Shown piece by piece: positions 19,522-41,776 of a DNA stretch of 64,000 bases. Position 1 is the stretch's first letter. The number at the start of each line of letters is the position of its first letter. Origin of the DNA: an uncultured Alphaproteobacteria bacterium (lineage in GTDB: Bacteria > Pseudomonadota > Alphaproteobacteria > Geminicoccales > Geminicoccaceae); assembly GCA_937926445.1 (NCBI GenBank), contig CALBAK010000028.1, positions 1-64,000 of the forward strand, written 5' to 3'. A program made the translations under genes and the position numbers. Under the pieces are notes generated by a model. That model did no database searches. It had not been told where the DNA came from and saw only the letters and a program-made list of their open reading frames with translations.

Positions 19522-19542
19522 TCGAACGGGCGCCGGTCCGGA

Positions 19543-21995: not shown

Positions 21996-23544
21996 CAGGC
22001 CGCCTCCGCCGTGATTCCGGCCATCAAGAGGTCGATCCTTTGCGCTCGTGAGCCTCCTCGGCCGTCACCTCACCCACGATCCTGCCGTCGAACATGACAA
22101 GGATCCGGTCGGCGAGCGCCAGGATCTCGTCGAGCTCGACGGAGACCAGCAACAGGGCCTTGCCGTCGTCGCGCAAGGCCACGAGCCGCGAGTGGATGAA
22201 TTCGATAGCGCCGATGTCGACACCCCGGGTCGGCTGGCCGACGAGCAAGAGGTCCGGGTCGTGCTCGAGCTCGCGCGCGACCACGAGCTTCTGCTGGTTG
22301 CCGCCGGGGAAGGCGAACGCCGGCAGGGTCGGCACTCGCGGCCGGATGTCGTAACGCTCCAACCAGTCCGCACAAATAGCGTGGACATGCCGGCGCCGGA
22401 GCAGAAGGCGCCCACTGTAGGCCGGGCGGCGATGGTATCCGAGGATCGCATTCTCGGCCGCGGGCATGGCCGAGACCAATCCCATGCGAAGCCGGTCTTC
22501 GGGGACGTGCCCGAGCCCTGCGGGCCGCCCGTCGACCGACCGCTGCGACGCGCGCCCCGCGAGCCGAACTTCTCCGCGAGTTGGTGTTCAGATGCCGGCG
22601 ATCGCTTCGAGCAGCGCGCTCTGGCCGTTGCCGGCGACACCGGCGATACCGACGATCTCACCGGCCCGCACCTCGAAGGACACGGCTTTCACCCGCGGCA
22701 CGCCGCGGTCGTCCGTCACCTTCACCTCAAGATCACGCACCTCGAGGACGGTGCGTCCCGGCCGCGCCGCGCGTTTGTCGGGACGGAGTTGGACCCTTCG
22801 ACCGACCATGAGCTCGGCGAGTTCCTCGCGGCTCGTCTCCGCCGTCGCTCGCTGCGCCACCATTCGACCGCCGCGCATCACGCTGACCCGATCCGTCACC
22901 GCCATGATCTCGCGGAGCTTGTGGGTTATCAGGACGATCGTTCGCCCCTACGCCCGAAGGACCCGCAACATGCGGAAGAGCTCCTCGGCCTCCTGCGGGG
23001 TCAGCACGCCCGTAGGCGCGTCGAGAATCAGTATCCGCGCGCCCCGGCAGAGAACCTTGATGATCTCGACACGCTTCTGGAACCCGACGGGAAGATCTTC
23101 GATCCGAGCGTCGGCATCGACCTCGAGGCCTTACTCTCGCGCCAGTCGTCCGAGCTCCGCCCTCATCCGGCAGAGACCGCCGCGGAGTATTAGGCCGCCC
23201 TCGGCCCCCAACAAGACATTCTCCACCACCGTGAACGGGCCGACCAACACGAAATGTTGGTGGACCATGCCTATCCCGGTTCGTATCGCATCGACTGGCC
23301 GGGCGACGGAACAGGGCCACCCTTCGACCAGGACGGTACCGTCGTCCGCCTCGTAGTAGCCGTAAACGATGTTGATCAACGTGGTGTTGCTGGCACCGTT
23401 CTCGCCCAGGATGCCGTGGATCATGCCGGCTTCGACCACGAGATCGACCCGGTTGTTGGCGACGACGGGGTTGAACCGCTTCGAGATCCCGCGCAGTTCG
23501 ATGGCCGGTTCAGGCAAGAGGCGAGCCTGTCCGCGTGCACTCAC
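21995..23544 (-). pseudogene. Nucleoside ABC transporter ATPase, three stops
   Basis: Double-domain ATPase of the sugar/nucleoside importer type. GTG 23544 overlaps the binding-protein stop (GTGA). In-frame TAA 23131, TAG 22948 and TGA 22588 divide it, all in one frame, and a missing base near 22032 displaces the tail LLMAGITAEAA. Domain 1 has lost its catalytic residues: Walker A reads GENGASNTTL (Lys to Asn) and Walker B reads LILDAPTG (Glu to Ala). Domain 2 signature is FPGGNQQK instead of FSGGNQQK. This cannot be an active ATPase. Confidence 0.9.
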
Positions 23545-24524
23545 CTCTGAGTAGAATAATAATCTTTGACGACGAGACGCCCGGCGATGATTTCGGGGCG
23601 GGCGGCCTCGAGCTTCGCTACGATGTCGGGTTTCAGGACGCCCCGGTTGTGCCCGTCGAGGGCGTAGCCGACCCCGTCCTCCTTCAAGCCCAGATCCAAC
23701 CGCCCGGGCTTCCAGGACCCGGCACGCGCATCGCGGAAGGCGTTGTAGACGGCGACGTCGACCCGTTTGAGCATCGAGGTCAAATCGTTGCCGGGGTGGA
23801 GATAGTTCTGGTTGCTGTCGACGCCGATCGAGAGTTTGCCCTTGTCCTTGGCGGCCTGGAGGACGCCGATGCCTGTACCACCGGCGGCGGCATATACGAC
23901 ATCGGCACCACGATCGAACTGGCTGATGGCGAGCTCCGCGCTCTTTGCCGGGCGTTCCTAGCGGCCGGCGTCGTTCCAGTCATGTTGATGAAGAGCTCGG
24001 CCTTTGGATTGACGTACATGATGCCCTGCTCGTAGCCGAAGGCGAAGTTGCGAATGAGCGGAATGTCCATGCCACCGACGAACCCGACCTTTCCGGTCTT
24101 GCTCGCGATAGCGGCCGCCATGCCGACCAGGAAGCTCCCTTCGTACTCCTTGAAGATCACCGATTGAAAGTTCGGCAGATCGACGACGGCGTCGATGATC
24201 GTGCACTTGCTGTTCGGGTACTCGGCCGCGACCTTCTTGAGTGGCGTGCCGTTCTGGAAGCCGAGCACGACGATGATGTTGGCGCCACGCCGGGCCATCT
24301 GCTGCATGGCCTGCTCGCGCTGGGCCTCCTGTGTAACCTCGAACTCGAGATACTCGATGCCGGTCTCCTTCTTGAACCGCTTTGCGCCGTTGTAGGCGGC
24401 CTCGTTGAACGATTTGTCGAACTCGCCTTCCATGTCGAAGATGACCGCGGGTTGGCACCCTGCGCCGCGACCGATACGGCCGTAGCGAACAGCGCGAGGA
24501 CGAGTCCCCAAAGAACCGGATCAT
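23541..24524 (-). pseudogene. BMP-family nucleoside-binding protein, frameshifted
   Basis: Periplasmic binding protein of the importer. ATG 24524, behind GGAGGTCGG, starts MIRFFG. The signal peptide LVLALFATAVSVAAQGANP continues in the next frame (base missing in the run at 24506–24509). A second missing base at 24449–24451 restores AVIFDMEGEFDKSFNEAAYN in a third frame, and a third at about 23950 shifts ELAISQFDRGADVVYAAAGG. The mature ending VVKDYYSTQR is in frame at 23541. First gene of the operon. Confidence 0.88.
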
Positions 24525-24600: not shown

Positions 24601-26151
24601 TCACGGTGTGAAGTCGGAGGCGGCTTCGAAGCTCATCGGGCCGCGACGCCAACCCGGTACCGGTGGTCGGGCGGCCACGGGCGGCAGCCGGACCGGCTCG
24701 GCGAGCAGACAGCTGGCCACGGCGTCGAGACCGTCGTCGCGGCAGCGGCGTCCGGGACGCCATTCGCGCATCTCGTCGAGGAACGGGGAAAGGAGTACCT
24801 TCCTGTGAACGTGCAGCCTCCGGGCGGCGAGCAACGGATCGAACGCTTCGAGGATACGGCGTTCCTTGGAGAGGGAGCTCGCTCGCGAGAGCACGGTGCA
24901 CCCGACGCCGGACCGTTGCAGTTCCCGGCGAAGCAGGGTCGGTAGGAAGCCGCCGATGCCATTGGTCTCGACCGAGATGCACGGCAGGTGGTTGCGTGCG
25001 AGGAAGCGCACGACGGCGCGGCAGAGCCTCGTCGCGTCGTCTAATTCCGGGTCGGCGCCTTGACGTAGCACGAGATACTCGATCGCGTGCAGCCAGTAAT
25101 GACCCTGCGCGTCGACGAAAACGGCTGCGACGACGCTCGAGTCGCCGCGTTCCGGACGCCCGTAGGCCGGGTCCCATGCCGCGGCGGCAGAGATCATCCG
25201 CCTGTCGCCGATCCAAAGTTCCTCCCGCCCTTGAACAGAGACGACCGAGGCATCGAGGTCGTAGGGCAGTAGTCGATCGGGCTCGAGCCGCACGTCCTCC
25301 GGCCGGGTGGGAAGAAGTTGCATCTGGCTGCGAAATCTGGCTGGCCCTGCCTCGCTCAACAGCCGATCGACCGCCGCTGAAGGAAATCGCTCCTTCCAGC
25401 GCTGTTCCCCCGAGCGGCGAACGAGAGGCAAGGTGAGACGCGTAAATCCGGCCAGGAAAGGCTCGGACTCGTTGAGCTCTGGGCGCGGCGTCTCTGCGTA
25501 GATCGAGTGATAGCTGTGCGGCGTACCGATGTAGATCTGCAGACCTTCCGGTACCAGAACGAAATTGAGCTCACGCAGCCGGTCGCGCAGGAGCCGCCGC
25601 TTTTCTTCGGTACCGGCGGTGTTCGGCACCTCGACGTCGTCGCAGACCACGACATCGGCGCGGCAACCGGTGATGTTGCCGAGGATACCGCGCGCGAGCA
25701 GCGACGGATCGCGCGACACCCGACGACGCCGAACCGTGAGCCGATCGGCGGCCCAGTTTTCCGACCGCGGATCGAGCAAGCATGTGGTGAGGGGATGATG
25801 TTCCAGGATCCCGCGCACATTGCGCGTCATCTTGGTGGCGAGTGCTTGCTCGGCCGACAGCACGAGAATCCGGAGGTCCGGGTCACCGTACAACAGCCAC
25901 GCGCAATAGAGAGCTGCCAGAGTCGACTTCCCCGAGTCTCGGAACACGAGAAGAAGCAGACGACGATCGTTCGCTCGCCAACACTCGTCCAACCACTGAC
26001 ATATCTGGAGGTGAAGGAGCGGTGTCGAGCGCCCTTGGCTTCGGTTCCACATAAAGACGAACCGGGTGAAGTTGATATCTGGCAGTCCAGGAACCGCCGT
26101 ACCCGTGCTTCTCTGTTGGTGTTTGCGCAACGAATCTCGATCGGCGGCCAT
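24601..26151 (-). CDS. Phage terminase large subunit
   Basis: DNA-packaging motor of 516 residues. Walker A is LVFRDSGKST near residue 70, Walker B is ADVVVCDDVEV, and the nuclease domain shows its acidic triad in AAWDPAYGRPERGDSS, ISVETNGIGGF and CRDDGLDAVA. The start at ATG 26151 sits two bases after the preceding stop. No small terminase subunit was recognised in the cassette. Distal gene of the minus-strand structural operon, 76 bp from the decayed nucleoside operon. Open and undamaged. Confidence 0.9.
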   Translation of the reverse strand: MAADRDSLRKHQQRSTGTAVPGLPDINFTRFVFMWNRSQGRSTPLLHLQICQWLDECWRANDRRLLLLVFRDSGKSTLAALYCAWLLYGDPDLRILVLSAEQALATKMTRNVRGILEHHPLTTCLLDPRSENWAADRLTVRRRRVSRDPSLLARGILGNITGCRADVVVCDDVEVPNTAGTEEKRRLLRDRLRELNFVLVPEGLQIYIGTPHSYHSIYAETPRPELNESEPFLAGFTRLTLPLVRRSGEQRWKERFPSAAVDRLLSEAGPARFRSQMQLLPTRPEDVRLEPDRLLPYDLDASVVSVQGREELWIGDRRMISAAAAWDPAYGRPERGDSSVVAAVFVDAQGHYWLHAIEYLVLRQGADPELDDATRLCRAVVRFLARNHLPCISVETNGIGGFLPTLLRRELQRSGVGCTVLSRASSLSKERRILEAFDPLLAARRLHVHRKVLLSPFLDEMREWRPGRRCRDDGLDAVASCLLAEPVRLPPVAARPPVPGWRRGPMSFEAASDFTP

Positions 26152-26152
26152 T

Positions 26153-26590
26153 TCAGTCGAGCAGGCTGCGCCGGGAAGTGCCGAAGCCACGCAGCGCCCT
26201 CGAACCGAGCTCGGCCCACTGACCAGCACCGTCGAGGAGGCTGCGCCGGGTTCGAGCTTCGTAACGATCGCGGGTGGCAGCGATCCGCGCCCCGGTCTCT
26301 CGGCCCCGAGCCTCCTGCAGTGCCCGGCTCTCCTCCTCGAGGCCGCGCAGCACCGCATCGATCGACCCGCCGGAGCCGGAGATCCCCATGGCTCCCGCCC
26401 TGGCCCGCTCCTGGGCGAGCCTGCGCGCGAGGGCCGCCTGCTGGCGACGTTGCTCCTCCGCGTCGGCGAGCCGGATGCGGCGGATCTCCTGCCGACGCTG
26501 CTCGTCGAGCCGATCCTTCTCCTCCTCGCGCGCCTTCTGCGCGAGGGCGAGTTCGAGACCGAGTGTGGCGAGACTGCTAAGCGCACCCAT
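26153..26590 (-). CDS. Coiled-coil phage virion protein (internal protein-like)
   Basis: 145 residues. A hydrophobic N-terminus MGALSSLATLGLELALAQKA is followed by a long, highly charged coiled coil and a GAMGISGSGGSIDAVLRGL linker. The ending repeats RRSLLDGAGQ and RRSLLD. Position after the tail-tube gene resembles the small internal virion proteins of T7-like phages, but there is no specific motif. ATG 26590 overlaps the preceding stop (TGATG). Confidence 0.6.
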   Translation of the reverse strand: MGALSSLATLGLELALAQKAREEEKDRLDEQRRQEIRRIRLADAEEQRRQQAALARRLAQERARAGAMGISGSGGSIDAVLRGLEEESRALQEARGRETGARIAATRDRYEARTRRSLLDGAGQWAELGSRALRGFGTSRRSLLD

Positions 26591-28545
26591 CAGTCGTTCA
26601 CCTTCAGTTCGGTTTGTGCAGCGAGAAGGGAGAAAGGCGCGGCGGCATCGTCGCGAATGCGCCAGAGGAAGGCGTCGTAGCCCCGTCGCCAGCCGGTGGC
26701 GCGCACAGCATGGTCCCCGGAGAAGGTCGGCCCGTCCGGATTTGCAAGCGGCATGATCCGCTCGCCGTTGCCGGTGTCGAGAACGACCCGCCGACTGTCC
26801 GCCAGCCGAAGCGTCACTCGGATCGGACGATGCACCGCATCGAGAGCCACGCCCCTGGAGGCCACCGCACACGGCGCGGGCTCGATCTCGTGGGAATAGG
26901 GCACGCCCACCGCCAAGCGGGAAGCGGGTGCGGCGAGCTGCACCGTCTCCGTCGCAAGAGTTCCGCGAAACACCTCGCGGCCATCGGCCAGGGCCACGAC
27001 CGCGGCGCCGACGTGGCGAGCGAACCCGGCCCAGGTCGTCGTCGGAGAAGAGGCCTCCGCCTCCTCGACGTGATCGAGCCAGCAACCGTCGCTCAGCGTC
27101 TCAAGGAGGGTTCGGCCGCGCCATCGCACGAGCAGCAAGAGCCGGTCGCGGAGCGTGGCGATCGAAAGCGCCTCACCGGCGAACTCCTGGAGGCTCCAGG
27201 CGGCGACGTTCGCATTGCGATCTATGGTCACGGTCGCGACGCGCCCGTCCGCGCGGACGATCCACAAGATCCGCCGCATGCCGTCGAAGACCGCCTCGAT
27301 CGGATCGACTAGGAGGTGGCGAGACAAAGTGGCGATGTCGGCCGCCTGGTAGGCCTGCTCGACCTCGGTGTAGAGGAACTCGCGGAGCTCACGCCCGTTC
27401 GCCGAAACGAACAGCGTCGCTCCGTCCACGTCCACGGGGCGGACCCGCGGCGCGATCCTCGAGCCGATCCGCGTCTGTCGCTCGACCTGGGTGCCGCTCG
27501 GTGTTACCGGGAAGCCCTTGACGATCCATTCCCCGGCGGAGGTGAAGATCTGCAGGTTGCGGCCGGGCACGAGCCCGGTGACGACATGGCTGGTCTCGTC
27601 CGACAGCCTGAAGGCGATGGCCTCGTCGTCAAGACCGGTTCCCGGGTCGAAGTTCATCGGCTTTCCGGTGCGCGACATCCAGACCCAGTCCGGGAGGTCG
27701 CGCGAGCCTCCGATCACCATACGGTCCTGGTGAAAGCTGATCGAACGCGGCCAGCCGTGGACCGGATTGAAGGCCTCCTCCTGCCATCGAAGCGTCCAGG
27801 CGCTGTTCGGGAAATCGTCGTAGGTCTTGGCCAGCACCCGGTCGGGCGCTACGTAGTTGATGATTCGAACGTGCCGGCCGCCGATCCGCAACCAGACGCC
27901 GTAGTGGCCGGGCTCGAAAACCCTGTTCGCGGAGGCGCCCTCCGAGTGCCGGGCGTCGACGATCACGAAGTCGCCTGCGGAAGCCCCGGGTGGCGGATTC
28001 GTGCCGTCGCGACGAACCCGCAAGGCCGTGTCCGGCGGCGCGATCTTGGCGAAGGGCGCGAGCGGCCGGACCACTCCCGGCTCGACCTCGACCGTCTCGA
28101 ACTGCCAGAAGCGCAGTTCCCATCGGTCGCCGGTCGCGTCCGCCCCGCGCCGTCGCACGATCTCGACGCCCCGAACCTCGGGATGGACAAGGTACAGGCG
28201 ATCGCGGTATCGGGCCCAATCGAGTCCGCGCAGATGTGCGGCCGACCAAGGCGCCTCCAGATCCGCGACGATGGCGTCGTCGCGCAGTACGACGACACGG
28301 AAAGGTGCGAGGACAAGAAGGAAAGCGGCGTCGATGTCGTCGAAGGGCACGAGCCGCACGGCATCGGGCACCTCGGCGAGGATCCGCGTTCCCGGCCGAC
28401 GCCACACGCCGCCACCTGCCTGGACGAAGACGTTGCGCAGCCGGCGAGCGCCGTCCTCCTGCGCCCGCAGGTCGATCCGCCCGAGCATTAGAGGATCGAG
28501 CTCGCCCGTGGTGAAGCTGGTCTTGAGTAGCAGCTGGCGGGTCAT
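26590..28545 (-). CDS. Podovirus tail tubular protein B-like
   Basis: Large beta-rich protein of 651 residues resembling T7 gp12-type tail-tube/nozzle proteins. The N-terminus is typical (TSFTTGELDPLMLGRIDLRA then VQAGGGVWRRPGTRILAEV). The centre has GWPRSISFHQDRMVIGGSRD and VWMSRTGKPMNFDPGT, which recur in this family. It overlaps the gp11-like gene (ATGA) and the coiled-coil gene (TGATG). Intact over its whole length. Confidence 0.85.
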   Translation of the reverse strand: MTRQLLLKTSFTTGELDPLMLGRIDLRAQEDGARRLRNVFVQAGGGVWRRPGTRILAEVPDAVRLVPFDDIDAAFLLVLAPFRVVVLRDDAIVADLEAPWSAAHLRGLDWARYRDRLYLVHPEVRGVEIVRRRGADATGDRWELRFWQFETVEVEPGVVRPLAPFAKIAPPDTALRVRRDGTNPPPGASAGDFVIVDARHSEGASANRVFEPGHYGVWLRIGGRHVRIINYVAPDRVLAKTYDDFPNSAWTLRWQEEAFNPVHGWPRSISFHQDRMVIGGSRDLPDWVWMSRTGKPMNFDPGTGLDDEAIAFRLSDETSHVVTGLVPGRNLQIFTSAGEWIVKGFPVTPSGTQVERQTRIGSRIAPRVRPVDVDGATLFVSANGRELREFLYTEVEQAYQAADIATLSRHLLVDPIEAVFDGMRRILWIVRADGRVATVTIDRNANVAAWSLQEFAGEALSIATLRDRLLLLVRWRGRTLLETLSDGCWLDHVEEAEASSPTTTWAGFARHVGAAVVALADGREVFRGTLATETVQLAAPASRLAVGVPYSHEIEPAPCAVASRGVALDAVHRPIRVTLRLADSRRVVLDTGNGERIMPLANPDGPTFSGDHAVRATGWRRGYDAFLWRIRDDAAAPFSLLAAQTELKVND

Positions 28546-29114
28546 GCGAGGCGAGCCTGAAGCAGCGTGAAGTCTTCGACCCGCTGCGGGGTCGCCTGTT
28601 GGCTGTCGATCAGTTTCGCGAGCTTGAGCTCGCTCGCGGCGAGCCGCGACAAGACCTCGGCGCGTGCGGCGTTTTCGGTGAGCGGCAGGCAGAACTCGGC
28701 CGCGAGCCTCGCAACCAGCACAGGAACGAAGTACGGGGGGAATTCGGCCTCCGGCGGACGCCGCTGGTACGTCAACAGCACGCTGTCGGCGTCGGTGTGC
28801 AGCCGGCCGCCGAACACGCGATAGACGAGGCCGCGCCCGGTTCCGCCGCTTCCCGCCGAGATCGTGCGCAGGATGTCCGTCGGGAGCCGGAACGCGAACG
28901 CGAAGTCGCCCGCCGGCGGTTCCGGGTCCTTGTCGAGACGGGCATGGGCGAGGGTGAACGACCAGGGATGCGCCATCAGCGTCGCATCCCGAACGACCGG
29001 ATAGAGGCGCGCCGCGGTTTCCGCCTCGGCCGTCGGCTGGTCGAAGGAGGCGATCGGCCGCGCACCGAGCTTGGCGAGCGCCGCCGCGCAAAGGCTCACG
29101 TCGGTATGAGGCAT
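28542..29114 (-). CDS. Podovirus tail tubular protein A-like (gatekeeper)
   Basis: 190-residue protein of the T7 gp11 type that forms the adaptor below the portal. Clues are VSLCAAALAKLGARPIASFD at the N-terminus, HPWSFTLAHARLDKDP and FRLPTDILRTI in the middle, and the position directly upstream of a gp12-like gene. It overlaps that gene by four bases. Confidence 0.83.
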   Translation of the reverse strand: MPHTDVSLCAAALAKLGARPIASFDQPTAEAETAARLYPVVRDATLMAHPWSFTLAHARLDKDPEPPAGDFAFAFRLPTDILRTISAGSGGTGRGLVYRVFGGRLHTDADSVLLTYQRRPPEAEFPPYFVPVLVARLAAEFCLPLTENAARAEVLSRLAASELKLAKLIDSQQATPQRVEDFTLLQARLA

Positions 29115-29142
29115 GGCTTGCTCCGTTCGGCAGGGACGCGGC

Positions 29143-29508
29143 TCAGATCGCCGGTCCCAGTGCCTCGCGCAGACGACGCCAGAGGAATGCCCGGTCGGCC
29201 TCGTAGGCGCCGACGACGCAGCCTCGGCGGGTGAGAGTGACGAGCAGCGGATGCCCGTCGCGGGAGAAGATCGTGGCGCCGTCGGGGTTCAACCTGGCGG
29301 CCATCGCCGGGTCGACCGGCCAGAGCCCGACGAGCGGCGATAGGAAGCCGTCGGCCACCGCGAACCGCTTCGCCTCCGGCAAGCGCTCGGCCAGGTTTTC
29401 GAGCTCTACACCTTCACAAGTCGACGTCTCGTTCGCCAGAACGGGCGAGACGAGTGTCGCGACGAGGGCGGCCACCGCGAATACGCGGTGTCTCGAGAAC
29501 CGTCGCAA
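29143..29508 (-). CDS. Small exported protein in phage cassette
   Basis: 121 residues from TTG 29508, which has GGAGG upstream; a GTG at 29553 would add 15 residues. RVFAVAALVATLVSPVLANE is a clear signal peptide, and two cysteines (STCEGV, RRGCVVGAY) could form a disulfide. I recognise no family. Its place between capsid and tail genes suggests a virion- or envelope-associated role. Confidence 0.55.
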   Translation of the reverse strand: MRRFSRHRVFAVAALVATLVSPVLANETSTCEGVELENLAERLPEAKRFAVADGFLSPLVGLWPVDPAMAARLNPDGATIFSRDGHPLLVTLTRRGCVVGAYEADRAFLWRRLREALGPAI

Positions 29509-29606
29509 AGCAGGAGCCTCCGGCTCGGGGGAACCGGCACGGCCGTGTCGCACAGTGGTGCGAGGCGACCGTGCCGTTCCTAAGAGGAGATCGCGATCGC
29601 GCGGCC

Positions 29607-29882
29607 TCAGGCCGCGTTGGTGGCGCCGACCGGCGTCACGTCGGAGAGATCGACGACGCCGTTCGCATTGCCGCGCACGACGAGCAGGCCGTGCGTCGGC
29701 ACCACTCCGATCCCGGCATTCGCGATGACGAAGTCACCGACGCGAAGCATCGAAGCGGCCGGGTTGAAGTACCCGGTCACGCTCACGTCGGCCATCGTGT
29801 CGCTGGTCCGGTAGTGCCAGAGCGTGAAGCCGTTGGCGTAGGCTAGCGCGCTCAAGTTCCGCGTATCACAGGCCATGATCAC
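29607..29882 (-). CDS. Small phage protein downstream of capsid
   Basis: 91 residues, MACDTRNLSALAYANGFTLW and YFNPAASMLRVGDFVIANAG, with a compact beta-rich look. Small proteins of this kind follow the capsid gene in alphaproteobacterial phages and may decorate the head, but this is inference. ATG 29882 overlaps the capsid stop (ATGA); a second ATG lies at 29876. Confidence 0.6.
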   Translation of the reverse strand: MIMACDTRNLSALAYANGFTLWHYRTSDTMADVSVTGYFNPAASMLRVGDFVIANAGIGVVPTHGLLVVRGNANGVVDLSDVTPVGATNAA

Positions 29883-30697
29883 GCCTCCAGGCAGGGAATC
29901 TTGACGACGCCGTACTCGTCGATGAGGACGGCGCCCTGTGACATCGAGTTGGCGACGAAATGGGCGGCCCGGTCACCGTGCCAGGTGATGTCGGTCACGA
30001 CCTCCTGGCCGACGGCGTGCCCGACGGCGCTGCGGTGGTACCAGAAGCAGGTGCGCACACCGCTGTCGATGGGCAGACCCGAATGGGCGATCCACAGCGT
30101 GCCGAGCCACATTTTGGCTTGCGACCCTCGCCAAGGGAGCTGATCGTCGCCGACGAACTGGGCGCTCGCGAACTCCGGAAGGACGAGGAGCTCCGACCAC
30201 TGCTTCCAGCCGACGACCGCGAAGCGCTGACCGTCGTCGGGGACGTCGTGTGCGCCCAGCAGCTCGAAGGCGGCGAGGACCTTCTGCTTGGTCAGCCCTT
30301 CGCTCGGCGAGCCGACGGTATGGGGGCTCTGGGCGAGGGCCTTGATGATCAGCTCGTCGGTCTTCCGGCCGAGCGCGAAGGCGCCCGCATTGGCGAGGAC
30401 CTGCCGCTCGTCGATGTTGGTCTTGAGCTCGTCGAGCCGATCGACCCACTCACCGGCGTAGTAGTCGATCAGGACCGCTTCGACGTTGGTGAACTCGACG
30501 CTCATCACGGGAACCATGCCGTGACGCGCCTTGGTGGCCGCTGTGCCCTTGCCGACCTTCTGGAAGACGGTCGTGCTGCCACGGACGTTGGTCTTGGTTC
30601 GAACGGTCGGTCGAAGCTTGGAGCCCTGCCGCTGGTAGGCGGCGTGGACCTCCCGCTCGAACTGCTTGATGAACGCTTGGTCGATGTTCGTCGACAT
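29879..30697 (-). CDS. Phage major capsid protein
   Basis: 272 residues from ATG 30697 (GAGG 6 bp upstream), beginning MSTNIDQAFIKQFEREVHAA. VEAVLIDYYAGEWVDRLDEL and the ending FVANSMSQGAVLIDEYGVVK are typical of podovirus capsids with the HK97-type fold. It follows the scaffold gene with a 121-bp non-coding gap, which may hold extra expression signals for this abundant protein. Frame intact. Confidence 0.82.
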   Translation of the reverse strand: MSTNIDQAFIKQFEREVHAAYQRQGSKLRPTVRTKTNVRGSTTVFQKVGKGTAATKARHGMVPVMSVEFTNVEAVLIDYYAGEWVDRLDELKTNIDERQVLANAGAFALGRKTDELIIKALAQSPHTVGSPSEGLTKQKVLAAFELLGAHDVPDDGQRFAVVGWKQWSELLVLPEFASAQFVGDDQLPWRGSQAKMWLGTLWIAHSGLPIDSGVRTCFWYHRSAVGHAVGQEVVTDITWHGDRAAHFVANSMSQGAVLIDEYGVVKIPCLEA

Positions 30698-30818
30698 CGG
30701 CATCCTCATGCTTGGTGTCGGACCGATCCGGGGCGCAGCGGTTGTCCGGGAGGGGGCCGAACGCACCCGGGAAGCTCGCCGGCACGGGCCCCTTCGGTTG
30801 TCCGTCCGGCGGAGCGCA

Positions 30819-31580
30819 TCATTCGCCGTACAGGCGTTTGAAGCCCTCGGTGACTCGCGCGATGAAACTCGGGTCACGATCACGCCAGTAGCGGGGATCG
30901 CGAACCATTCGATCGAGCGCCTGCTCGTCGAGACGCGCGGCGGCGTCGTCGGCGCGGCCGAACAATTCGGGCTCGCTGCTCCGCATCATCCGATGCAGCG
31001 TCAGAACGCCCTGATAGCTGCTCGAGAGTGCCGCGAAGACTTCGGGCTCCAGGTGCGCCTCGCCCCAAGTCTTGATCTCGCGGGCCACCTCCCGCCAGCG
31101 ATCGTGGCCACCGAAGTGACTCGCTAGACGCTCGACCTGGCGGGCGACCTCGGCTTCCTCGGCCAAGCGCTGGACCATCGGCATCAGCCGCTCGGCCGCG
31201 AGGTCGTACACCAACTGGACCTGGCTCTGGGTGAAGCCGGCGCCGTGCAGCCTCGCGTTGATCTCGGGATCGGGTCGAACGAGGTCGCTTTTGCTCGCGA
31301 TCTCGTATTGATCCGGGGCAGCCGGGCGACCGAGGGCGTTGAAGAGGCGCTCGCGTGCCGCGTGATCGTCGGGCCCCTCGGGCTGCGGCAGGCTCCGACC
31401 GAGCTTGCGCTCGAGCTCCAGATAGGAACGCAGGAGGGCGTCCACCCGGATCGCGCCGGTTTCGGGGTCCCAGAATTTTTCCGGAACATCGAGCGGTCGC
31501 GACGGATTCGTCGGCTGCGGGTCCGGCACGATCGGGCCGGCCCCCTCGGTATCCGACCGATCTTCGATCTCGCTGTTCAC
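30819..31580 (-). CDS. Phage scaffolding (capsid assembly) protein
   Basis: 253-residue acidic, helical protein, located between portal and capsid as in T7-like phages. VPEKFWDPETGAIRVDALLR and SYLELERKLGRSLPQPEG near residue 40 are the N-terminal motif of podovirus scaffold proteins. GTG 31580 has AAGGAAG upstream and overlaps the preceding stop (GTGA). Confidence 0.8.
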   Translation of the reverse strand: MNSEIEDRSDTEGAGPIVPDPQPTNPSRPLDVPEKFWDPETGAIRVDALLRSYLELERKLGRSLPQPEGPDDHAARERLFNALGRPAAPDQYEIASKSDLVRPDPEINARLHGAGFTQSQVQLVYDLAAERLMPMVQRLAEEAEVARQVERLASHFGGHDRWREVAREIKTWGEAHLEPEVFAALSSSYQGVLTLHRMMRSSEPELFGRADDAAARLDEQALDRMVRDPRYWRDRDPSFIARVTEGFKRLYGE

Positions 31581-31876
31581 AGCATCTTCCTTCGTTCGTT
31601 CGTCGTCCTTCCGGCCCCTCGTCTGCCTCGCTCGATTAGAGCCAGGACGTGGGCCACTACGGATCGCTGACCTTCGACGTGACGGAGTTCCGCGTCGCTG
31701 GCATTGGGTCCTAGTCGGCGGTCGAGGAAACATCTCCTCAGATACTCGAGCACCATCGCCCCGGCCGCATCGCGAAAGCAGTGAGCGAAGGCGAGGGCCA
31801 GCTCGTCCTCGTGTTCGACCGGCGGCGGGTGCTCGCCGAGAGCTTCCCAGCCCGCCTCGAGGAGTGGGTCAGGCAT
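31577..31876 (-). CDS. Bbp19-like phage protein
   Basis: 99 residues. FAHCFRDAAGAMVLEYLRRC is the core pattern of the Bbp19-like domain found next to portal genes in podoviruses; its function is unknown. ATG 31876 overlaps the portal gene by 8 bp, and the stop overlaps the scaffold GTG. Confidence 0.68.
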   Translation of the reverse strand: MPDPLLEAGWEALGEHPPPVEHEDELALAFAHCFRDAAGAMVLEYLRRCFLDRRLGPNASDAELRHVEGQRSVVAHVLALIERGRRGAGRTTNERRKML

Positions 31877-33398
31877 CGGAATTCTCCGGCGCGCGGCCGT
31901 ACAAAGGGCCGACGCCCGCCACACCCATCGGCGGAGCGTCTTCCCGTACTAGCTCGCCCGCCACACCCAGCGCCCGCGCGAGCCAGATCGCTGCCGCCCG
32001 CGCATCGATCACCGCCTGGGCCTCGGGTCCCAACCGCCCTGCCGCCTCGAGCCACATCAAGGTGTTCTGGACGTCGACACGGGCCTGGGCGCGCGCGAGC
32101 GGCGAGCGGTAGTCGATCTCCACAGTGCGACCGTCGATGGAGAGCACGGGCACCTCGCCGCGACGACGCAGGATCGCCAGCCCGCGTTGCACGAGCGGCA
32201 CCAGGAGCTCGGCCTGCAGGCGGCCGAACACGGCGCCCAGGAGCCTCGAGGTCTCGGCGGCGCGCTCGAGGATCTCGGTGGCGGTCATCTTCGGCCCTCG
32301 GGTGGGCCCGAGGCGGTCGACCAAGAGAGTGTGCCGGATGCGTGCACGCAGGTCCTCGAGAACGAGCTGGGAAACGTCGAAGCGTCCGGGCGCCTGGAGC
32401 GGGGTCAGGCCGGCCGAGCCGACTGCTTTGGGGATGATGCTGCCCGGCTGCAGGCGGATGTTCGCCGGGTTGAGGACACCGTCGTCCTCGACGAGCCAGA
32501 TTCCCGTAACTGCGATCGAGGCGTTCTTCAGAACGAGTTCTACGACCTTGTTGGCCGTCTTGATGTCCGGGAGGGCCGCCATCACGGGCGAGCGACCGTA
32601 GAGCTCTCCGGCTCCCTTGACCCACCGGAAGCAGTGGAACGGGGAGGTTTCGAAATACCCCTCGGCCAGGATCGCGCCACTTTCCGCACCGGCGGTTCCG
32701 GGCGGCACGAAGCGGACGAAGCGTAGACCGCGTCCCGGCTCGGGCTCGACCGCCTCGACGATCTCGATCGGCCGCTCGGGATCGTCGCCGACCCGATCGG
32801 CAAGCGATGCCGGCAGAAGTGCGGCCGGAACCCGATCCAAAAGGCTCTGCAACGTATGCGTGGTGACCCTGTAGAAACGAGTAATCTCGCCGCCGCGGTC
32901 GCCGTCTAGAAACATCTCGGCGACCGGCACCGCCGTGAAGCGGAACGCTGAGCTGGTACCAGGCGGCGCCTCCTCGAAGAGAAGATGCGCAGTTCCGCAG
33001 GTAACCAGATCGAGAAAGCATTGGTGCATTTCGACGGCGAAGTTCGAGCGATCGAAATGCCCTTGCAGACGTCTCCCGATCGATTCAAGGAACTCTGCCA
33101 TCGCGCCACACTCTTCGGGCGGCACGTCGATGCCAGGGCGAAGCCCGAACCACTCCGACCAAGGAGGAACGAGTTCCGCCATGAGGCTCGCCGCCAGCTG
33201 TTCGACGGCATCGATCGCCGTGCCGTCGAAGAGCTTGTCGGCGAAGCGCACGGAAGCCGCCTGGTCACCGGCGAAGCCACCGGCGCGTTGAGGCAGTGCG
33301 AAGCTGTAGCATTCGCGCCAGAGCGGTTCCCAGGCGGCGCGGCGCGCCTTGGCCCGGCACACGCGCGCATGGAGCAATTCGAGGGATTCCGCCGCCAT
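31869..33398 (-). CDS. Phage portal (head–tail connector) protein
   Basis: 509-residue T7-gp8-like portal. MAELVPPWSEWFGLRPGIDV, ELYGRSPVMAALPDIKTANK and DRLGPTRGPKMTATEILERA are characteristic. ATG 33398 follows GAAGGTG; a GTG at 33422 is in frame but lacks a ribosome site. First large gene of the minus-strand structural operon, fed from the promoter region at about 33.9 kb. Confidence 0.9.
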   Translation of the reverse strand: MAAESLELLHARVCRAKARRAAWEPLWRECYSFALPQRAGGFAGDQAASVRFADKLFDGTAIDAVEQLAASLMAELVPPWSEWFGLRPGIDVPPEECGAMAEFLESIGRRLQGHFDRSNFAVEMHQCFLDLVTCGTAHLLFEEAPPGTSSAFRFTAVPVAEMFLDGDRGGEITRFYRVTTHTLQSLLDRVPAALLPASLADRVGDDPERPIEIVEAVEPEPGRGLRFVRFVPPGTAGAESGAILAEGYFETSPFHCFRWVKGAGELYGRSPVMAALPDIKTANKVVELVLKNASIAVTGIWLVEDDGVLNPANIRLQPGSIIPKAVGSAGLTPLQAPGRFDVSQLVLEDLRARIRHTLLVDRLGPTRGPKMTATEILERAAETSRLLGAVFGRLQAELLVPLVQRGLAILRRRGEVPVLSIDGRTVEIDYRSPLARAQARVDVQNTLMWLEAAGRLGPEAQAVIDARAAAIWLARALGVAGELVREDAPPMGVAGVGPLYGRAPENSDA

Positions 33399-33452
33399 GA
33401 TGCACCTTCGGCTATCAGACACGAAGGATAGTATACCGCTTTAGGAATCATG

Positions 33453-33647
33453 TCAACCCCTGCCTCCGCAGCTACCGGTCGGGGCGACGAAGCCGAGTCG
33501 ATGCAGTGCACGATAAAGCTGATACGGTGTCCACACACCAGGCGCGCGCAGACCCAGGATGCGCTTGACGACCTCGACACAGGTGAGCGGACGAAGAAGA
33601 CCGAGTCCAGGATTGCAATCTACGGTGTTCCCAACGAGAGCGATCAT
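33453..33647 (-). CDS. Hypothetical 64-residue protein at head of structural operon
   Basis: Short frame with VVKRILGLRAPGVWTPYQLY followed by RALHRLGF, a helical, basic segment. It is the first possible gene after the promoter region and in the direction of the portal gene. No family recognised; it could be a small DNA-binding or packaging protein. The ribosome site is weak, so it may not be translated. Confidence 0.4.
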   Translation of the reverse strand: MIALVGNTVDCNPGLGLLRPLTCVEVVKRILGLRAPGVWTPYQLYRALHRLGFVAPTGSCGGRG

Positions 33648-33915
33648 CTCAAGCCGCCTATAGTGATTGAGTATATCTATCTCATTGTAACACGATATTA
33701 CCTCTAGAGTGAGGCTTGATTTGAGGGGATCACACACGATCCAGCCGACAGGGCGGTGGACGAGGCAGAAACAATGGCGGAAGCCCGAGCGCAGCCAGCG
33801 CAGACACGGCACGGTCGCCCGGTCTTCGAAAACGACGATGGCTCTCGAGACGCTGGCAGGCGAAATTCGAGGAGTCCCGAAATGCGGAGTTCCGGCGACC
33901 TTTTTCATGTATTTA

Positions 33916-33944
33916 TACCTACTGACAGGAAGCATTCCTGTCAA
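33916..33944 (-). promoter_or_regulatory. Putative leftward promoter of structural operon
   Basis: On the minus strand TTGACA (33944–33939) is followed after 17 bp by TAGGTA (33921–33916), immediately overlapping TATAAA. The –35 box is part of the inverted-repeat operator, so a bound repressor would block it. Confidence 0.45.
33923..33943. promoter_or_regulatory. Perfect inverted repeat, likely repressor operator
   Basis: Arms TGACAGGAA and TTCCTGTCA are exact reverse complements around a GCA centre. The repeat lies 55 bp before the regulator start and over the –35 box of the leftward promoter. The half-site TGACAG recurs at the rightward promoter at 34,723. Binding by the adjacent HTH protein is inference. 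Confidence 0.6.
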
Positions 33945-33997
33945 GAGAATAGGCGGGCGAACAGTCAGAGACTCCCTTGTGCCGGAGCGCCATCCTA

Positions 33998-34639
33998 ATG
34001 CTGACCCACAAGCAGGTCTGGGACGGAATCGATCGGCTCGCTGCGCGGAACAAGCTTTCCGCGTCGGGCCTGGCGAAACGCGCCGGGCTGGACCCGACGA
34101 CATTCAACAAGAGCAAACGCATCACCAAGCAGGGTAAGCCGCGCTGGCCCAGCACCGAGAGCGTCGCGAAGGTGCTCGATGCCACGAACACGTCGATGCG
34201 GGATTTCGTCGAGCTCATGCAGGGCGGAACGCCGGGCAGTCCGGTCGGACGCGGTTTCAGACTGCGCTGCACGGGCCTCGGCGAGGTCGAGCGCGGAACC
34301 TGCCTAGACGCAGCGGGCTTCCCCAACCCTACCGGCTGGGAAGAGATCGAGTATCCGGCGATCGACGACGAACACGCCTACGCGATCGAACTGGATCGGG
34401 ACGTGGCCCCACCCGTCTATCGAACCGGGGACATCGTCGTCATCTCGCCCGGCAGCAGCATTCGCAGAGGCGATCGCGCGATCGCGCGGCTCCGCTCCGG
34501 CCAGGTCCTCTTCGGCGTCGTGGTCCGGCGCACGGCGCAACGCGTGGTGATGAACGTTTTCGGCTCAGAGCAGACCGAAGAGGTCATCGAGGCCGACCGC
34601 CTGGCCTGGCTCGCACGCATCCTCTGGATCAGCCAGTAG
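33998..34639 (+). CDS. cI-like HTH regulator with S24-like domain lacking dyad
   Basis: 213 residues from ATG 33998 (MLTHKQVWDGIDRLAARNKL). The N-terminal HTH is SASGLAKRAGLDPTTFNKSK. The C-terminal half follows the S24/LexA-like fold (YRTGDIVVISPGSSIRRGDR). In self-cleaving relatives a Ser sits in a GDSMEP-like motif and a Lys in a VMAKVL-like motif. Here those places read DRDVAPP and VLFGVV, so both catalytic residues seem absent. It may be an uncleavable repressor, switched by something other than RecA. It separates the leftward structural genes from the rightward tailspike genes. Confidence 0.75.
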   Translation: MLTHKQVWDGIDRLAARNKLSASGLAKRAGLDPTTFNKSKRITKQGKPRWPSTESVAKVLDATNTSMRDFVELMQGGTPGSPVGRGFRLRCTGLGEVERGTCLDAAGFPNPTGWEEIEYPAIDDEHAYAIELDRDVAPPVYRTGDIVVISPGSSIRRGDRAIARLRSGQVLFGVVVRRTAQRVVMNVFGSEQTEEVIEADRLAWLARILWISQ

Positions 34640-34721
34640 GTGTGCCGTCCGACCACGACGGCGCGCGCTTGCCGAGACGGACGGAGGGGCCGGGCCAATC
34701 TTGGGTATAAAGACTACCTTC

Positions 34722-34750
34722 TTGACAGAAGTCCTATGATGCCTTAGGCT
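34722..34750 (+). promoter_or_regulatory. Putative rightward promoter with half-operator
   Basis: TTGACA (34722–34727), 17-bp spacer, TAGGCT (34745–34750), 52 bp before the first rightward gene. TGACAG inside it matches the operator half-site at 33,923, and upstream GTATAAAGACTAC resembles the sequence flanking that operator. Same TTGACA-N17-TAGG layout as the leftward promoter. Confidence 0.5.
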
Positions 34751-34802
34751 GCGTCCGCGATCGTCGCCCGGCGGCCTGCCGGGTCCGCTCGGAGACGCAG
34801 CC

Positions 34803-35129
34803 ATGAGTTTGCTCCTCCCCCTCGACGACAACGGGAACCCGATCGGGATCCTCGGGTTCGACTACCGCGGCACCCAGAAGCTCGCCGTCGGCCCGAGCTC
34901 GATCCGGAACCCAGTTCCGATCCCGAGCGACATCGAGATCGTGACCATCTACGCGACCGGTCCCTGCCGGTTCGAGCTCGGTGACGAGAGCGTCACCGCG
35001 GATCCCGCCTCGAGTCCGTTCCTGGCACCCGGGCATTATCTCGACATCCCGCTGCGACGCGGTGAACGCTACGTCGCCTTCGTCGCCGAGGCCGACCCCT
35101 GCGACGCCTACGTGATCGGCCGTATCTGA
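34803..35129 (+). CDS. Small phage protein, tailspike operon
   Basis: 108 residues: MSLLLPLDDNGNPIGILGFD then RGTQKLAVGPSSIRNPVPIP, beta-rich. It resembles small proteins encoded before tail-fibre genes in alphaproteobacterial podoviruses, with no known role. The start follows GGAGACGC. A small hairpin (CCCGGC / GCCGGG) lies just upstream at about 34768. Confidence 0.6.
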   Translation: MSLLLPLDDNGNPIGILGFDYRGTQKLAVGPSSIRNPVPIPSDIEIVTIYATGPCRFELGDESVTADPASSPFLAPGHYLDIPLRRGERYVAFVAEADPCDAYVIGRI

Positions 35130-35130
35130 C

Positions 35131-35301
35131 ATGCCGCTCTGCCTCGCGCCGACGGCGACGGGGCTGCGCATCACGAGCCGCGATCGGAGCGCCGTGGCGC
35201 CGGCTCCCTCGCCCCTCGACCCTCCCGTCCTCGCAACCGAATCCGGCAAGCCTCTCGTCACCGAGCTCGGCGAGCGGCTGGCCGTGGAGCGCGAACCATG
35301 A
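35131..35301 (+). CDS. Short linker ORF before tailspike
   Basis: 56 residues: MPLCLAPTATGLRITSRDRS, proline- and alanine-rich. It begins one base after the previous stop and overlaps the tailspike ATG (ATGA), which suggests real translation and coupling. No family recognised. Confidence 0.5.
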   Translation: MPLCLAPTATGLRITSRDRSAVAPAPSPLDPPVLATESGKPLVTELGERLAVEREP

Positions 35302-37661
35302 GCACAAAGCAGATCCACGAGCTCCCGGCCACCCCCGTCGCGGAACCGAACGACCAGCTCGTCCTCTCGACGGCGGCGGGCAATCTGACCCGCCGTGCCT
35401 CGGTGGAGGCGCTGTCCTGGCGGCTGTCGGGCACGAGCCCGAGACGCCTGTTGCGGGACAAGCTCGCCGAGCGCGTCTCGGTGCGCGACTTCGGGGCCGC
35501 AGGTGACGGGCTCACCGACGACGCGCCCGCCTTCCAGGCTGCCGTGGATGTGGCCCTCGAGGTCCACGTGCCGGCAGGCCGGTACCGACTGGCGAGCGTG
35601 GTGCAGGTCAAGCCCCGGCGGCGAATCGTGGGTGCGGGGCGCGACATCACCGTGCTCGAGGCCCAGGGCGAGCGCGCCTTCGTCTTCCACCGCAACGAGG
35701 GCCTTTACACGGTCGATGCGGGCGGCACCACGGATTGGACACGGTCATCGATCGAAGACCTTTCGATCCGGATGAGCGTGTCTGGCATCCTCGCCCGCGG
35801 CCACGAGTTCATCGCCCAGAAGCTGCGCTTCGCCGGTGGTTCTCCGACCGGCTGGTGCCTGGAGCTCGAGAACGCCAACGAGTGCTGCATCCGCGAGATC
35901 TCTGCAGGCCCTGGCGGCGGCGACCACGATCTGCTGGCGAACGGCATCCGGCTCTACGCCAACGAGGCGGGTGCCGGCGTCAATTACGGGGACGGGCTGA
36001 TCGAGGAGGTCTCGATCAAGCTCAAGGGGGCCGGCACGACCGGCATCCGGATCGAGCATCTGGGCTCGCCGGTCGCCGGCAAGCTCTACGTCATGAACAA
36101 CCTCCTGCTCAATCGCGTGCAGGTCAACAGCGCGGGCGCGCCTCCGGGCAGCACCGGCATCTGGCTCCGCCGGGTGATGCGTTCCGCCCTGGTCAATTGC
36201 GACGTCGAGTTCGTCGAGACGGCGTTTCGTGTCGAGGGCGCGGCCGGTGGCGGCAACGCCGGCAGCACCCGCCATGTCAGTTTCGTCAACTGTTACGTTC
36301 TCAATTGCACGGCCCCGTGGGTCGACAGCAACGCTTCCCTGCCGGGCTCGGTGATGCGTTGCTTCTTCGCCAACTGCAATGGCTTCGGCCAGGTCAATCC
36401 GGTCGGGGTCGCGAGCGACGATCCCCATGCCCGCGCAGGCGAGGGGGATGTTTTCCTCCCCTCGGCACTCTGGCTCAACGAGCCGAGCCAAGGGGGTGCG
36501 GCGATCCAGGTGCGCGCACCCAATGTCGGCCAGCTCCTTCTGACCGGCGACTTCCACGACGGCACGAGCACGATCCGGGACAGCAACGTCAAGAACTTGA
36601 GCCCCCGCCAGGCTCTCGGCGTCGATATCACGTCGTTCAACGTGACGAGACTGTATCGGCCGAGGGGTTATACACCGGGCCAGGAGAGTCGGATCGCGAT
36701 CGGCAACGGCGAGGATCACCCATCCGGTTCGCTGCATCGCGTGGAGATCGCCGATCCGCTCTATCTTCCGCCGCGTACCGCCGAGCCGAGCCAACCCCGC
36801 AACGGCTTTGTCGTTTATTGCGAATCATCCGCGGCGCTCCCGTCGGGAACTCCGTGGGCGGGGCCGGGCTGGTATTCGCGACTGGCGAACGGATGGAGCC
36901 CGGGTGTCAACCTACCGGGTCGTGTGCCCGAGCGCGAACGCAACACCAGCTTCAACCTCTCCCCGCTCGATTTCGGCCGTATCCATCGCATCAACAACGC
37001 GAGCCCGATCACCATCACGGTCGCCTCGACCTACACGGTAGGCGACACGACGCTGCCGTTGCTCACCGCCGGCGACCCCGCGGCCCTGCTCTGGCTCATT
37101 CGACAGGGGACCGGGAGCGTCACGATCCAGGCCGGCGACGCGAACGTCGAGATCAGGAACCCGGCCGGTGGAACGACCCTGACGATCCGCCGCCAACACC
37201 AGCTCGTTGCAATCGTGCTCCGGCACAACGCCACGTCCGGAAAGATCGAGGTCTACGGGACGACGGTACCGGACGGCGAATTCACGTACGAGGAGAGCGT
37301 CGGCTGGACCAACGCCAGCCAGGGGCTCAACTCGGATACGACCCCCTACGTGGTCGCCGCGAACCGGGCCGGCCAGCTACTGCGGATCAGCTCGTCCGAT
37401 CCGGTGAGCTATGTGGCGTTCGAGGCGGCGAGCATGCCGGCGGGCCTGAGTGCGGCGATGTTCCGGCTGGTGAGCGTCAACAATCCCATCCGCATCATGG
37501 TCCGCCCCTCGAGCTCGCCGCAGCTCACGCTCCGACGGAGCAACGTTGTGAGCCCGGGCGGCTTCCCCTGCTTCGAGGTCGGTGAACTCGGTCGCGTGGT
37601 CACGGTGCATCTCGTGACCAACGACAGCACTCAGGCCAACTCCATCTACATCGAAGGATGA
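35298..37661 (+). CDS. Tailspike with pectate-lyase-like beta-helix
   Basis: 787-residue adhesin/depolymerase. The N-terminal STKQIHELPATPVAEPNDQL is a particle-attachment segment common to podovirus tailspikes. SVRDFGAAGDGLTDDAPAFQ (about residue 60) is the entry motif of the Pectate_lyase_3 beta-helix, which runs to about residue 450, followed by beta-rich trimerisation or carbohydrate-binding modules. It probably binds or degrades the surface polysaccharide of the target cell. The frame is fully open. Confidence 0.85.
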   Translation: MSTKQIHELPATPVAEPNDQLVLSTAAGNLTRRASVEALSWRLSGTSPRRLLRDKLAERVSVRDFGAAGDGLTDDAPAFQAAVDVALEVHVPAGRYRLASVVQVKPRRRIVGAGRDITVLEAQGERAFVFHRNEGLYTVDAGGTTDWTRSSIEDLSIRMSVSGILARGHEFIAQKLRFAGGSPTGWCLELENANECCIREISAGPGGGDHDLLANGIRLYANEAGAGVNYGDGLIEEVSIKLKGAGTTGIRIEHLGSPVAGKLYVMNNLLLNRVQVNSAGAPPGSTGIWLRRVMRSALVNCDVEFVETAFRVEGAAGGGNAGSTRHVSFVNCYVLNCTAPWVDSNASLPGSVMRCFFANCNGFGQVNPVGVASDDPHARAGEGDVFLPSALWLNEPSQGGAAIQVRAPNVGQLLLTGDFHDGTSTIRDSNVKNLSPRQALGVDITSFNVTRLYRPRGYTPGQESRIAIGNGEDHPSGSLHRVEIADPLYLPPRTAEPSQPRNGFVVYCESSAALPSGTPWAGPGWYSRLANGWSPGVNLPGRVPERERNTSFNLSPLDFGRIHRINNASPITITVASTYTVGDTTLPLLTAGDPAALLWLIRQGTGSVTIQAGDANVEIRNPAGGTTLTIRRQHQLVAIVLRHNATSGKIEVYGTTVPDGEFTYEESVGWTNASQGLNSDTTPYVVAANRAGQLLRISSSDPVSYVAFEAASMPAGLSAAMFRLVSVNNPIRIMVRPSSSPQLTLRRSNVVSPGGFPCFEVGELGRVVTVHLVTNDSTQANSIYIEG

Positions 37662-37666
37662 GCACG

Positions 37667-37867
37667 ATGTCGACCTTCTCGCTCGAACGCGTGTGGCGAG
37701 TCCTCGTCGATTGGCTGTGGCTCGCCGTGATCCGTGCCGCCCTCGCGGCGGTCCAAACAGCAGTGGATGCGCTCGGTCTGGACGTCGACGGCCGCCGGGC
37801 GGTGTTGAACCAGCTCGGTGACATGATCCTTCCCTCCTCCTCGCCCCGAGAGGCACACTTCGCCTGA
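37667..37867 (+). CDS. Small protein after tailspike
   Basis: 66 residues from ATG 37667 (GAAGG 9 bp upstream; an ATG at 37658 overlaps the tailspike stop but has no room for a ribosome site). It has an amphipathic or hydrophobic helix, RVLVDWLWLAVIRAALAAVQ. A holin-like or accessory role is possible but unsupported. Last gene of the rightward arm. Confidence 0.5.
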   Translation: MSTFSLERVWRVLVDWLWLAVIRAALAAVQTAVDALGLDVDGRRAVLNQLGDMILPSSSPREAHFA

Positions 37868-41607: not shown

Positions 41608-41776
41608 GCCGCGCCGTGTCTTCGAGCCGACCGCCGGCCCGGATAGGACGGATAGCCTCGATCTGGTCCACCCTCGGGTAGGATGGAGGCGTACGGGCAC
41701 TTGGCGAAGCGCACCCGCTCCTATAGTCGGCCTGCGGACAGCATTCGGAGCCGGGCATGGGCTGAAAGCGGCAATT

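Follow-up and report, generated by a model that had tools for sequence, protein, structure and literature searches.

It is acknowledged that new gene transfer agents (GTAs) are hard to recognise from their sequences (PMC11841831; this and the papers below are cited for the passages that bear on the point at hand). The case considered here is a cassette of phage-like genes at 24601-37661 in a 64,000-nucleotide stretch of contig CALBAK010000028.1 (the window), from an uncultured alphaproteobacterium of the family Geminicoccaceae. That it is a domesticated, selected, multilocus and podovirus-derived element is well supported, and we say so with little hesitation. As to function, a GTA is the best explanation and a likely one, the genes pointing to a cassette that probably builds virus-like particles loaded with the bacterium's own DNA.

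Described systems and the cassette

RcGTA and CcGTA are vertically inherited and selected, with a head-tail cluster, several loci and no replication genes (PMC9662315, PMC6209664). Like them the cassette is alphaproteobacterial, inherited, selected and dispersed, and RogA, whose family is relevant to the cassette regulator, is part of CcGTA control (PMC9632790). They differ in being siphovirus-type with the tail protein GTA_TIM, whereas the cassette is T7/HTVC010P-like and GTA_TIM is absent. The ancestor of the RcGTA type was itself of the siphovirus type. BaGTA (type II), likewise alphaproteobacterial, has a core gene cluster of about 14 kb, and its terminase large subunit (TerL) groups with that of Sulfitobacter phage pCB2047-C (PMC9662315). 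On a comparison by description only, BaGTA is set apart by being linked both to secretion-system genes and to a replication origin of phage descent.

The first-pass annotation held that a podovirus-type GTA would be new, a statement now tempered by the FpGTA of Faecalibacterium, which in January 2026 was presented by its authors as most likely podovirus-like (PMC12946183). In FpGTA, too, the genes for portal, scaffold, capsid and TerL sit together in a compact operon, and there is a second operon elsewhere (PMC12946183). Set against the cassette by description only, it differs in its Gram-positive host, a candidate small terminase (TerS) and a holin/endolysin locus, and in that its structural proteins and packaged DNA have been observed (PMC12946183).

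For Azospirillum there is older work. Phages with about 10 kb of DNA, considered rather to be GTAs, were reported from A. lipoferum strains including 4B and from Azospirillum sp. B510, the particles of 4B containing random host DNA fragments of about 10 kb (PMC3899980). The cassette capsid cluster is present in A. lipoferum Sp59b (L038) and Azospirillum sp. B506 (L043), and A. brasilense loci L040, L050 and L053 carry the cassette (L and G numbers are our designations for loci and genomes). No publication was recognised as describing the cassette, in a search that left out most subscription papers.

The locus

The head-packaging-tail module, about 13 kb and T7/HTVC010P-like, is complete. The downstream order on the minus strand is HC (our label for a gene overlooked by the first-pass annotation), portal, Bbp19, scaffold, capsid, phrog_18004, accessory gene, gp11, gp12, coiled coil and TerL, with the regulator, a small protein and a tailspike facing the cassette on the plus strand. 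The podovirus-like genes which that annotation had listed are all there, and every gene below is an open frame on the strand given.

24601..26151, minus: terminase large subunit (TerL, T7/phrog_38 type); phrog_38 at 9e-77; Walker A GKS, DDxE
26153..26590, minus: coiled-coil protein, probably a gp14-like internal virion protein; T7_gp14 at E 0.14 only
26590..28545, minus: tail tube gp12-like protein; phrog_376 at 6e-101
28542..29114, minus: tail tube gp11-like protein; phrog_394 at 2e-41
29143..29553, minus: accessory protein with signal-peptide-like N-terminus, mostly genus-limited and poorly conserved; ratio of nonsynonymous to synonymous substitution rates (dN/dS) 0.52
29607..29882, minus: small protein, phrog_18004 at 8e-21; 3' of capsid in most loci
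29879..30697, minus: major capsid protein, Phage_capsid_2; PF19821 at 7.5e-78
30819..31580, minus: scaffold or capsid assembly protein (T7 capsid assembly family); PF05396 at 6e-17
31577..31924, minus: Bbp19-like protein; PF25181 at 9.8e-15
31869..33398, minus: portal (podoviral head-tail connector family); PF12236 at 3e-124
33453..33905, minus: HC, a possible muralytic enzyme, predicted as a cysteine hydrolase with permuted NlpC/P60 (papain) fold; from fold comparison of a model
33923..33943, no strand: 21-nt inverted repeat TGACAGGAAGCATTCCTGTCA with N3 core, candidate operator upstream of the regulator
33998..34639, plus: RogA-family helix-turn-helix (HTH) and degenerate S24 regulator, divergent from the cassette; both Pfam matches below curated cut-offs
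34803..35129, plus: small conserved protein, mainly genus-level; dN/dS 0.11
35298..37661, plus: tailspike with pectate-lyase-like domain; PF12708 at 3e-11, tail PHROGs

The TerL acidic residues D329, E397 and D474 are kept in 100% of 142 aligned rows, as are GKS and DDxE; the frame stays open far upstream, with homology beginning only near 26151. The coiled-coil equivalent from another family matches the internal virion protein family phrog_418 at 5.6e-6. The earlier remark that integrase and phage attachment (att) repeats are wanting stands: no integrase occurs among the block proteins scanned, the ends of the block show no att-like pair of direct repeats (18 nt or longer), and genes for autonomous replication or integration were not found among the open frames scanned at the locus. 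NCBIfam offers no name for any of ten cassette proteins.

Phage relatives

Among phage records the closest complete genome is that of the 34-kb pelagiphage Hodr (OQ414635; capsid 49-50% and portal 36-37% identical), with HTVC010P-like pelagiphages at about 32% for the portal, Vibrio phages of about 32 kb at about 32% for the capsid, and the Yersinia YeP phages, at 31%, closest for TerL. Hodr has the same relative order of portal, Bbp19, scaffold, capsid, small protein, gp11 and gp12, but within a full 34-kb genome of about 60 annotated genes, the rest of which the cassette lacks. Vibrio phage 1.254.O (MG592620), with the order TerL-HC-x-portal-x-scaffold-capsid-gp11-gp12, has HC too; it differs in its 32.7-kb size, in having three large proteins encoded beyond the tail tube genes and in a separate protein with a Zn-peptidase domain.

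A tree of portal, capsid and gp11 from 26 cassettes places the chromosomal cassettes in one clade (support 96) apart from Hodr and Vibrio 1.254.O, both of which are long branches in it. Inside that clade, beside G179 (a 1.6-Mb alphaproteobacterial genome), falls an unannotated 5-kb 'Bacteriophage sp.' scaffold from human faeces (MT838907.1, L318), which is a cassette fragment running from portal to gp12; its source may be a gut alphaproteobacterium whose cassette DNA was either packaged or present just as contamination.

Distribution, inheritance and selection

The capsid gene is single-copy in its own genome, is matched in 32 of 60 genomes of a search among relatives, and is present in 27 of the 31 genomes sampled from the family (its own counted), with none found in the other four. 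Flanking host genes are collinear in the five genus genomes laid out (G000, G001, G002, G003 and G005; G004 was covered only partly), G001 and G003 differing at the locus only by absence of the adjacent transport operon. In other genera of the family the cassette sits elsewhere on the chromosome.

Further afield, a scan of one genome per species (84,980 species) gave 423 relatives. The titles of the best 80, which were kept, are Geminicoccaceae, Azospirillum, Niveispirillum, Skermanella, Roseomonas, Defluviicoccus, Micavibrio and other alphaproteobacteria, a few being uninformative. Gene order is similar in these 80 and, among 40 loci laid out in addition, in most; L216, L221, L225-L227 and L231 are among those whose cassettes are rearranged or partial. 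Across 387 genomes of the class the capsid is matched in 96, at 55% identity or more in 64, and close copies of the cassette number nearly always one per genome. It is kept even in reduced genomes of 0.9-1.3 Mb; four of about 0.9 Mb from one genus (G093, G192, G337, G397) also show short matches to the regulator HTH at three places each.

Has the cassette descended with its hosts? For 30 genomes, quick trees without bootstrap were made from rpoB and from six concatenated cassette proteins. They have 16 of 27 splits in common, as against a mean of 0.23 and a maximum of 4 in 2000 label permutations; splits with a Shimodaira-Hasegawa-like approximate likelihood ratio (SH-aLRT) of at least 95 (16 and 15 of them) show no conflict; and patristic distances correlate with a Spearman coefficient of 0.83, reached in none of 2000 permutations. 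With its genus-wide place, its presence through most of the family and an rpoB-like tree, the block is neither recent nor sporadic, and with collinear host genes bordering it in the genus it is no part of a larger att-flanked prophage, both being outcomes which the first-pass annotation had set against a domesticated particle.

It had set dN/dS near 1 against one as well. Within the genus (Nei-Gojobori, 15 pairs per gene, HC and Bbp19 left out of the set) medians are 0.114-0.239 for 11 of the 12 genes tested, far below that value, and the capsid has no internal stop in 62 of the 64 class genomes of the 55% set. These figures indicate that phage-derived structural and packaging genes are held as host genes under purifying selection. 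They also bear on the thought that a prophage is decaying here and that chance, in a lineage of low deletion rates, has preserved what remains. Frame breaks in host genes near the block would fit decay, as would the four family genomes in which no capsid was found and the few carriers with broken genes, but at the genus level the dN/dS values disfavour a remnant, and stop-free capsids, retention in genomes of 0.9-1.3 Mb and fixed TerL catalytic residues speak the same way; we give it hardly any credence.

Split loci and variants

Of 50 genomes with the capsid that were searched for a portal, 49 gave one: 34 within 20 kb of the capsid, six at 70 kb to 1.94 Mb from it on one contig, and nine on a different contig, some of these perhaps through draft assembly breaks. 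In five of the six same-contig splits the portal is open and 134 kb to 1.94 Mb from a capsid that is open too (the distant portal of G200 is only 39% identical); the sixth is G077. A regulator gene within about 3 kb of the distant portal, in 11 of the 15 genomes with portal and capsid apart on one contig or on two (G077, G221, G289, G353, G389, G125, G243, G261, G110, G334 and G087), marks that portal as the cassette's; no convincing one was found in G200, G103 or G046, and G008 was outside that search. Two loci so far apart are compatible with a host trait but hardly with the spread of a phage.

This is a difficulty for the idea that the cassettes are prophages of a widely distributed family of temperate or satellite phages and seem minimal only because parts were missed. 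It has in its favour that IMG/VR holds, as viral contigs, at least 600 related stretches (many of the best 80, which were kept, being 12-13 kb) and that Hodr, HTVC010P-like and Vibrio phages have homologous modules. Besides halves that lie far apart in some genomes, however, it would have to accommodate one locus throughout the genus, a tree congruent with that of rpoB, nearly always one close copy, no att-like repeats and, in Azospirillum, an interruption of the head genes by an EAL/GGDEF gene; it is strongly disfavoured and in our view very improbable.

The interruption just mentioned is a sensor gene between scaffold and capsid in Azospirillum-type loci (L037:7382-9724 by Pfam, with a similar open reading frame at L067:6915-9263). 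In L096 (9217-9621) a gene with a sub-threshold PilZ match occupies the same interval on the opposite strand, and together these insertions hint at links to cyclic di-GMP. Many other families also have a tail fibre or tailspike gene ahead of TerL, one with a sub-threshold T7-fibre start in L098 and one with a pectate-lyase domain in L096. A small protein there matches phrog_31793 in all three loci scanned (L098:16472-16774, L089:17033-17311, L068:14460-14864), and these are possible small terminase subunits. The window has neither fibre nor phrog_31793 protein before TerL, its tailspike being placed behind the regulator.

A regulator of the RogA family

The window regulator (213 aa from its ATG) has an HTH and an S24-like part and is transcribed divergently from the cassette. 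Regulators of the window's family have lost the LexA-type Ser and Lys, while most other aligned rows keep GDSM and the following Lys. Homologues occur in 129 of the 387 class genomes (four weak, some matching the HTH half only) and, with a single match each, in 53 of 119 Caulobacteraceae genomes. One of them, in G512, also has 213 aa from ATG, sits 85 kb into an assembly of one 4.14-Mb contig, has GDEL replacing GDSM, lacks both catalytic residues, and is 38.5% identical to the window protein and 50.7% to the Skermanella one. The RpoB N-terminus of G512 is 100% identical to PDB 7ye1, which we take to be Caulobacter. RogA of C. crescentus (CCNA_00080) is a 213-aa LexA-like protein without cleavage residues that represses the GTA activators gafYZ, the promoter having GGAA-N4-TTCC inverted repeats (PMC9632790). 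From genus, length and position we infer that the G512 homologue is RogA, and by sequence the window regulator belongs to this family of a Caulobacter GTA repressor.

Are there RogA-type operators beside cassette regulators? Near-duplicate upstream regions having been removed (88 to 72), GGAA-N4-TTCC at 7 or more of 8 bases is present in 33 of 72, as against 5.3 expected from dinucleotide shuffles, the control patterns in the same regions giving 5 against 5.0 (N5), 16 against 5.3 (N3) and 5 against 2.9 (TGTC-N4-GACA). This one-mismatch test supersedes a count of exact GGAA-N3-5-TTCC in the first 400 bp upstream (7 of 89, 1.4 expected). The enrichment supports these as candidate sites, with reservations: because the upstream regions are related to each other it is support and not proof, a GAAC-N4-GTTC control gave 6 against 3.2 with exact matches 5 against 0.3, and the window repeat at 33923-33943 has a 3-nt spacer unlike the N4 of the RogA site. 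The only exact RogA-type site in the window, inside the portal (33166-33177), was discarded, being at chance level (0.94 expected).

The regulator family reaches beyond the cassette. GTA_TIM (PF13547), in a search calibrated on 14 named control genomes of which only Caulobacter vibrioides was positive, occurs neither in the genome of the window nor in any of the 64 genomes of the class that have the capsid. Among the 387 genomes, 64 have the cassette capsid, 40 have GTA_TIM and none has both, where 6.6 would be expected (Fisher p 0.001, in a test without correction for phylogeny). Regulator homologues are found in 56 of the 64, 23 of the 40 and 46 of the 283 with neither, weak matches in G107, G252, G279 and G301 having been dropped and those to the HTH half alone kept.

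HC, a candidate wall-cutting enzyme

HC (150 aa) lies between regulator and portal in 88 of 88 loci that have both, a count that includes repeat fetches of some genomes and used a pattern written after examples had been seen. G41, H44, C109, V110 and L130 are invariant across 67 aligned rows. No meaningful family match was obtained from Pfam or PHROG, and its profile found nothing among PDB sequences, but relatives are present in 50 Vibrio phage records (27-32% identity in the rows shown), that of Vibrio phage 1.254.O adjoining TerL.

From the order His then Cys, a permuted papain or NlpC/P60 fold was expected before the fold search. The structure model, with a predicted local distance difference test (pLDDT) score of 88.6, has as best VIA matches TseH (Z 7.5), YiiX (6.3) and a B. 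cereus Cys peptidase (3kw0; 5.0), with other folds from 4.8, and a VIA Z below 8 may reflect merely a common arrangement; Foldseek gave no significant match (no E below 0.1). The three are, we presume, permuted NlpC/P60 proteins. HC is on this footing predicted to be a candidate wall-cutting cysteine hydrolase. The same regulator-portal interval in L076 holds genes X (AEEAWFW...RPCEP, about 139 aa) and Z (C-terminus TS.RGVL...RK.LLGE), which recur outside the window's family; the Z-like protein of L209 matches phrog_831 at 3e-4.

What the cassette may do

In the scheme we favour, a T7/HTVC010P-like phage would have left its head, packaging and tail genes to an alphaproteobacterial lineage, which would have kept them from a time before its present families diverged, and they would now be a host trait. 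In most cells the regulator would repress the cassette; once repression is lifted, portal, scaffold, capsid and TerL would form heads that package host DNA, the set of gp11, gp12, coil and tailspike would close and aim the particle, and HC or another host enzyme would open the wall. Portal, scaffold, capsid and a catalytically intact-looking TerL are kept, as DNA packaging requires.

Selection and vertical inheritance are of course silent on cargo, and a domesticated head-tail module might be selected for another role, be it as a phage-derived weapon, in interference with infecting phages or with other cargo. Variation of the tailspike or fibre between lineages would suit such roles, as would the lack of large internal core proteins relative to the Vibrio phage. 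Against them stand the joint retention of portal, scaffold, capsid and the TerL catalytic residues, a regulator from a GTA-repressor family and, among the five accessory proteins scanned, no match to any PADLOC model. We consider another role unlikely, if one to be borne in mind.

A number of observations do weigh against a GTA. The locus has none of the large internal core proteins that the ancestor type possessed, which leaves DNA ejection unexplained; no small terminase was seen in the 64-kb window and no canonical holin or lysozyme at the locus. An unlinked GH24 lysozyme was dropped as common lysis gene, since 23 of 31 cassette-bearing genomes searched, the window's own included, have no match and of the 8 that do 3 are weak. 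There are damaged carriers, G077 with its portal in two pieces about 17 kb apart and G152 with a stop in its portal, and the capsid-bearing G209 gave no portal match. For the 10-kb Azospirillum particles a different region, ordered like RcGTA, is suggested by those who described them, and in A. brasilense CBG497 mitomycin caused no lysis, other A. brasilense phages being of 62-65 kb (PMC3899980).

On the GTA reading, absence of GTA_TIM means that the cassette is not of type I, though it shows the genomic features of a GTA, type II being compared by description only. A broader proposal seems to us about evenly balanced: that the cassette represents a third GTA type in Alphaproteobacteria, a short-tailed, T7-like one that was domesticated independently and stands in for the siphovirus-like RcGTA across much of the class, the two being mutually exclusive and sharing one repressor family. 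RogA may then stem from the divergent repressor of the podoviral element, later recruited to RcGTA-type clusters in Caulobacterales and relatives.

Should the GTA reading be true, a new GTA type is common to many Alphaproteobacteria, GTA capacity reaches lineages without the RcGTA marker and genomes as small as about 0.9 Mb, the class gained GTAs on at least one further occasion and from a different virus type, a single repressor family connects two unrelated GTA types, and the many 12-13-kb 'viral' contigs of the cassette kind noted above among the IMG/VR stretches are explained. The presence of the cassette in cultivated genera (Azospirillum, Niveispirillum, Skermanella, Roseomonas, Geminicoccus) makes it a directly testable case.

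Neighbouring host genes

The first-pass annotation had contrasted the intact block with a lesion in every gene of the transport operon beside it (18746-24511). Compared with G005, the operon's first gene, presumably for a BMP-type binding protein, changes frame and its second has an in-frame stop, so that lesions in these two stand. The contrast is nevertheless weaker than was claimed, other host genes being broken too: against G005 frames break at about 11301-14214, 16791-18225, 18746-20513 and 41759-43329. Decay or assembly error is thus not confined to the transport operon and may be general in the contig. The part of the operon nearest the block is missing at the same place from G001 and G003.

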